Shown: positions 63,726-64,000 of the stretch, piece after piece
Position numbering within the stretch: the first letter of the stretch is position 1
Layout of the letters: the number at the start of each line of letters is the position of its first letter
From: Streptomyces sp. NBC_01235
Lineage (GTDB): Bacteria > Actinomycetota > Actinomycetes > Streptomycetales > Streptomycetaceae
Length of the DNA stretch: 64,000 bases
Direction: 5' to 3'
Assembly: GCF_035989285.1 (NCBI RefSeq)
Contig: NZ_CP108513.1
Coordinates: 5,642,001 to 5,706,000 of the forward strand
Notes under the pieces: model-generated
The model's database searches: none
What the model was told of the DNA's origin: nothing
Seen by the model: only the letters and a program-made list of their open reading frames with translations
Translations under genes and position numbers: made by a program

Positions 63726-63798
63726 GAGACCTACTCCCTACGCCGGCATTACCCGGTAACAGGTTCGGCGGTCGACGCAGCGGCTACCGTCGTCCGAG

Positions 63799-63812
63799 GT
63801 TTCATGTGAAAC
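63799..63812. other. parS-like site within TPP riboswitch insert
   Basis: GTTTCATGTGAAAC, one mismatch to parS; lies in the P3 insert. Confidence 0.75.
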
Positions 63813-63831
63813 ATCACTCGATTCAAGAGAC

Positions 63832-63845
63832 GTTCCACGTGAAAC
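63832..63845. other. parS-like site within TPP riboswitch insert
   Basis: GTTCCACGTGAAAC, one mismatch to parS; 33 bp from the site at 63799. Confidence 0.75.
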
Positions 63846-64000
63846 ATCGCGAAGACGGAGGTCAGCGCCCTCTCAGCCCGGTGCTCCGAGCTCCCGCGTG
63901 TGCAAAGGTGCCTCCACGCTAGCGTCAATTCGGGCGCGGTGAACAGAGGGCCCCTGTCGTTCTTGCGATGATCGGTCGGTGACCACGACACACCAGCCCC

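Follow-up and report, generated by a model that had tools for sequence, protein, structure and literature searches.

A probable dual-coded parS pair in the P3 arm of the Streptomyces thiC TPP riboswitch

The leader of thiC in Streptomyces sp. NBC_01235 raises the question of whether one sequence can work in DNA as a centromere site and in RNA as an arm of a metabolite sensor, as its TPP riboswitch contains two palindromes of the ParB-binding type. The window, i.e. the whole stretch of 64,000 nucleotides analysed here, covers positions 5642001-5706000 of a genome consisting of a single 11.09-Mb contig. Its last gene, together with the leader, is thiC (61899-63725, minus strand, 608 aa; Pfam ThiC_Rad_SAM, 3.9e-188), and 253 bp separate the thiC start from a divergent 654-aa open frame that begins at genome position 5705979. 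The reading we favor, with a probability of roughly 0.8, is that a genuine parS pair is dual-coded in the distal P3 arm of the riboswitch and has little effect on thiC. This reading is built on the position and conservation of the site, the covariation of the helices around it, and its phylogenetic spread, all of which were observed.

The riboswitch itself was identified by searching positions 63650-64000 alone with the Rfam TPP model (RF00059) at a relaxed threshold. As the original prediction had anticipated, the conserved 5′ and 3′ parts are intact: a single match covers both halves and accommodates the long P3 as an 86-nt insert (Table 1). The features that mark membership of the family occur in order (CTGAGA, ACCTG, TAATGCC..GCGTAGGGA, plus the P3 base helix), TAATGCCGGCG starts at 63751 on the minus strand, and the aptamer lies directly upstream of a thiamine gene. 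The distance of about 85 nt first proposed between the conserved cores applies to the insert relative to the model, whereas 104 nt separate CTGAGA from GAACCTG. The full-length match, the conserved cores, the location upstream of thiC, and a 3′ end overlying a likely ribosome-binding site are all as in a typical thiC TPP riboswitch. Unlike usual RF00059 members, this one has a P3 extension carrying parS palindromes and scores below the gathering score of 54.3 bits, at which it is missed. That gathering score is an operational cut-off and not a biological feature. Aptamers of relatives likewise fell below it (37.1-54.1 bits, each full length, with or without parS, for 20 of 143 leaders picked to span arm lengths), and we attribute the low scores to lineage combined with the long arm. 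The leader is expected from its sequence to bind TPP, and since GGGAG lies within the 3′ end of the aptamer, translation may be controlled directly.

Table 1 Features of the thiC leader (window coordinates).
Feature	Position	Strand	Evidence
TPP riboswitch aptamer (RF00059) in thiC leader	63718-63907	-	model 1-105/105, 38.8 bits, E 2.6e-6
CTGAGA, conserved 5′ core of aptamer	63871-63876	-	sequence, RF00059; invariant in 58 leaders with parS
P3 base helix, 5′ strand GGCGC	63865-63869	-	RF00059 alignment, fold
P3 arm extension, 86-nt insert relative to Rfam model, contains both parS sites	63779-63864	-	
parS site 1, GTTTCACGTGGAAC in RNA sense, 1 mismatch	63832-63845	-	
19-nt spacer, predicted apical part of hairpin joining site 1 to site 2	63813-63831	-	
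parS site 2, GTTTCACATGAAAC, 1 mismatch, less conserved copy	63799-63812	-	
P3 base helix, 3′ strand GCGUC	63774-63778	-	RF00059 alignment, fold
GAACCTG, conserved 3′ core of aptamer	63760-63766	-	sequence, RF00059
GGGAG, likely Shine-Dalgarno, in aptamer 3′ end, 8 nt before ATG	63734-63738	-	sequence, putative role

Of the 253 bp that lie between thiC and the divergent frame, the aptamer occupies about 182, so that the part of this gap with the most freedom to change is probably the variable arm. Scans of the intergenic region for promoters and terminators, both uninformative for Streptomyces, returned no sigma-70-like promoter and one terminator-like match on the opposite strand (mean in shuffles, 0.3).

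Both palindromes lie inside the P3 insert, in line with the nesting claimed initially, and they are, as also claimed, 14-bp ParB-type sequences 33 bp apart (start to start). Each is one base off the consensus GTTTCACGTGAAAC. Throughout the window, eight parS matches were found at up to three mismatches, all of them with zero or one, compared with a mean of 1.06 and a maximum of 3 across 100 shuffles. Genome-wide, 32 sites at up to one mismatch were detected, all of them between 5.527 and 5.915 Mb (388 kb), and a reversed-pattern control gave none. A second mismatch added five scattered sites against three control matches, which indicates that the set at up to one mismatch is clean. Twenty of the 32 sites are grouped with spacings of 21-56 bp, for which the 33 bp of the thiC pair is typical. 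ParB is encoded at genome positions 5752045-5753142 (domains ParB_N, HTH_ParB, and dimerisation), approximately 48 kb from thiC. For comparison, 16-17 parS sites are given for the S. venezuelae chromosome (available text of PMC4852455 and PMC12511625), and 11-65 per Streptomyces chromosome across 20 genomes (available text of PMC8743542). The thiC pair is similar to other chromosomal parS of Streptomyces in being made of 14-bp palindromes clustered near oriC and parB, and differs from them in its placement inside a structured, regulated RNA leader and in both members being one-mismatch variants.

In duplex DNA, each palindrome would act as a ParB loading site, one of the 32 in the parS zone. 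In RNA, the same letters would form the distal P3 stem, with a single palindrome folding on itself and two palindromes pairing with each other. The two functions need not collide, since an inverted repeat is just what the tip of an RNA stem requires, arm length differs widely from one species to another, and neither the TPP-binding core nor the P3 base is disrupted. Any effect on thiC would most likely be small.

The same hairpin might instead have been kept for an RNA reason alone, for instance as a protein-binding or folding motif, with an accidental likeness to parS, an explanation we consider very unlikely. Against it, site 1 (GTTTCACGTGGAAC, a position-11 variant of the consensus) occurs at five other places in the parS zone of this genome. 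Site 2 (GTTTCACATGAAAC, a position-8 variant) was found 43 times in 121 genomes of the genus, of which 20 occurrences are in thiC leaders and 15 inside parB, with two others less than 300 kb from parB, three far from it, and three unplaced. Nor was parS present near either of the two other TPP matches returned by a genome-wide RF00059 search, both far outside the parS zone; this search missed the long-armed thiC leader, and maybe others.

The parB gene of this genome itself includes a perfect parS (genome 5752952-5752965), read as codons V-S-R-E-T. A parS within the parB coding sequence is doubly read, as is the thiC pair, but the second reading there is a protein and here a structured RNA. 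Elsewhere in the window, parS sites form a triple (51664-51747, spacings of 34 and 36 bp) and three single sites (30834, 45077, and 54518); the first site of the triple and the site at 45077 fall inside GC3-rich open frames.

To evaluate how widely the nesting is retained, we compared thiC leaders across relatives. Best matches to thiC among named loci were Streptomyces, so that the genus genomes were taken as Streptomyces. Of these, 120 of 121 contained thiC, with 122 matches altogether, and their 122 leaders were combined with 22 Streptomyces or Kitasatospora leaders out of 80 named loci, whose species may overlap with the 121 genomes. A TPP motif was present in 143 of these 144 leaders, the exception being L196, one of three thiC copies of genome G025 (with L147 and L152); in that genome, no upstream TPP motif was found for the copy at C1:69457. 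The comparison with other Streptomyces leaders, a check proposed in the original prediction, showed that a nested parS at up to one mismatch is kept across a large clade and occurs in 61 of the 143 leaders (50 single, 11 double). The first parS starts at a nearly fixed distance from the C of CTGAGA (31 nt in 58 leaders, 32 nt in two, and 30 nt in one), and the leader sites come in two variants, a CGTGGAAC type and a CATG type. Arms without parS carry other hairpins, with 64 distinct 14-mer tips in 80 leaders, in a comparison in which two of 16 single-site tips are one base out of register (offset 30 or 32). As far as each locus reaches (less than 600 bp of upstream sequence for 5 of the 121 genus-genome leaders scanned), no further parS was detected within 700 bp upstream of the 50 parS-bearing genus-genome leaders, and another upstream parS was found in three of the 71 lacking a nested one.

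In the family, 34 of 297 genomes matched a strict pattern linking parS to the aptamer, as did 8 of 394 in the class, and every match fell within the genus of the window; this pattern is tied to the 3′ sequence of the aptamer, and looser forms outside the genus may escape it. We also asked whether distance to the origin determines which leaders carry parS, and rejected this idea, as distances to parB are similar with and without the nested site: 42.8-58.4 kb (median 46.8 kb) in all 43 parS-bearing leaders for which thiC and parB share a contig, and a median of 46.1 kb, with one at 416 kb, in 58 leaders without it.

In a thiC tree of 141 rows (excluding L203 and L204, in which thiC is truncated), leaders with parS fall into a clade of 60 rows, of which 57 have the site, and a separate 6-row group, of which four have it. 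As drawn, this quick tree would require either two gains or a single gain and 10 losses. An independent double origin is unproven: a joint clade of both groups was not disfavoured (AU p 0.517, the 6-row group having been named after the tree was seen), and L194, from the small group, has the 5′ flank CCGTCCCAGCG in common with large-clade leaders such as L122. One origin with few losses is therefore possible.

On its own, the co-location of parS and a riboswitch in this genome is not very improbable, and the nesting is judged to be more than chance because it is conserved in relatives. A passing coincidence, in which parS fell into a variable loop, does little, and is inherited by descent, would account for the three large-clade rows devoid of parS, but it sits poorly with retention at up to one mismatch in the other 57. 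It is also at odds with the pattern of substitution. Across 58 parS-bearing leaders, no change occurred in 10 of the 14 columns of the site, whereas third codon positions of thiC underwent 6.1 changes per column on the same tree, and we consider coincidence to be scarcely probable.

The kind of change also differs between the site and its surroundings. Across 16 single-site arms, two-sided change was seen in 7 of the 10 pairs of the outer and flanking helices, compared to 0 of 5 in the parS core, where the sole variable pair alternates between U-A and U-G. The same counts (7/10 vs. 0/5) were obtained from 19 further single-site arms, which were found, among 28 further parS leaders, with a pattern fixing nine of the 14 site positions and limiting a tenth to A or G, and two of which have the same sequence as arms already among the first 16. 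The L133 leader, with a 100-nt arm, belongs neither to the 16 single-site arms nor to the long arms considered below. A core devoid of two-sided changes while the helices just outside covary argues against a hairpin kept for RNA reasons only, as does the invariance of the loop A and C across the 58 leaders. That explanation draws some support from site variants that preserve the stem (loop changes, and U-A to U-G at columns 36 and 43) and from the P3 base helix, a non-parS part of the aptamer core, in which two-sided changes are equally lacking (0 of 5 in both arm sets). Hence, missing two-sided changes are by themselves no proof of a DNA function, and the contrast holds relative to the helices adjoining the site, not to every helix. 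The site as a whole does not evolve more slowly than the flanking stem (1.5 substitutions per column over 14 columns vs. 1.6 for 8 changes over 5 columns), which speaks against a simple rate argument: only the kind and the place of changes differ, with 18 of the 21 site changes in the 58 leaders at positions 8 and 11. These comparisons support the notion that a DNA-type and an RNA-type constraint can be distinguished, in part, in single-site arms.

For the long arms with two sites, the individual palindromes had been thought to fold into separate hairpins extending P3. An extension of P3 stands, but of 36 arms having two sites at up to three mismatches, 35 are predicted by minimum-energy folding to pair site 1 with site 2, yielding one long hairpin in place of two. 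This long hairpin is more favorable than two separate ones by a median of 10.5 kcal/mol (-46.5 vs. -31.7 for the arm in the window). All 44 long arms counted retain site 1 at up to one mismatch, which becomes 44 of 45 if L150, a parS-clade leader whose long arm lacks the site and which was left out of these counts, is scored as a miss. Site 2 reaches this level in 11 of 44, and its divergence in the other 33 is a further point in favor of coincidence. Inter-site covariation for the most part failed to prove that the long hairpin forms. Pairing between the sites was not retained beyond chance in 32 arms (11.5 observed, 11.0 expected at random, 12.1 under a transitions model), and two-sided change was seen in only 5 of 38 pairs in 29 arms of 125 nt. 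One position pair was associated, as C4 of site 2 occurs only opposite G11 of site 1 (14/33 vs. 0/19 in 52 arms, Fisher p 0.0007, uncorrected for kinship). With pairing at the random expectation, a two-site RNA role would rest mainly on predicted energies.

The location of the sites could also point to regulation. ParB clamps on the leader DNA might hinder RNA polymerase or a nearby promoter, such that thiamine synthesis follows segrosome assembly. The sites do lie inside a leader whose transcription the riboswitch needs, Pseudomonas aeruginosa promoters by parS3 and parS4 are described as repressed under excess ParB (available text of PMC5521831), and ParB enrichment in S. venezuelae is reported to extend up to 2.5-3 kb around parS (available text of PMC12511625). 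We nevertheless regard such control as unlikely: no sequence feature couples parS to thiC, the 30 other parS sites of this genome are not at thiC, and 82 of the 143 leaders do without a nested parS, which makes it dispensable there. These data are better accounted for by toleration of a real parS pair in a variable riboswitch arm than by ParB control of thiC. A broader proposal, also improbable in our estimation, is that ParB occupancy and TPP sensing influence each other and tune thiamine synthesis to segregation, and that RNA stems can house palindromic chromosome sites cost-free.

Under the preferred reading of a tolerated, dual-coded parS pair, selection has apparently maintained one sequence in two roles, that of a centromere site in the DNA and that of a riboswitch arm in the RNA, under constraints that are partly separable across species. 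The locus illustrates to what extent such an arm can be given over to a second use. It also provides a natural test of whether ParB loading within a transcribed, regulated leader alters expression. The TPP riboswitch and parS are both known elements, and the novelty lies in their arrangement. Among the literature matches listed, judged by title and the opening of the abstract, there was no report of parS in a riboswitch or at thiC; individual leader sites may already stand in published parS tables (supplement of PMC8743542).

Two further observations concern non-coding RNAs. At the locus L205, the small RNA Scr3920 (RF02828, 141.8 bits; positions 12618-12743) is encoded about 7 kb from thiC. 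In the genome of the window, a perfect parS (L304:7363-7376, genome 5527363-5527376) occupies the 24-nt gap between tandem tRNA genes (7283-7357 and 7382-7455), and is probably a second parS in a transcribed non-coding unit.
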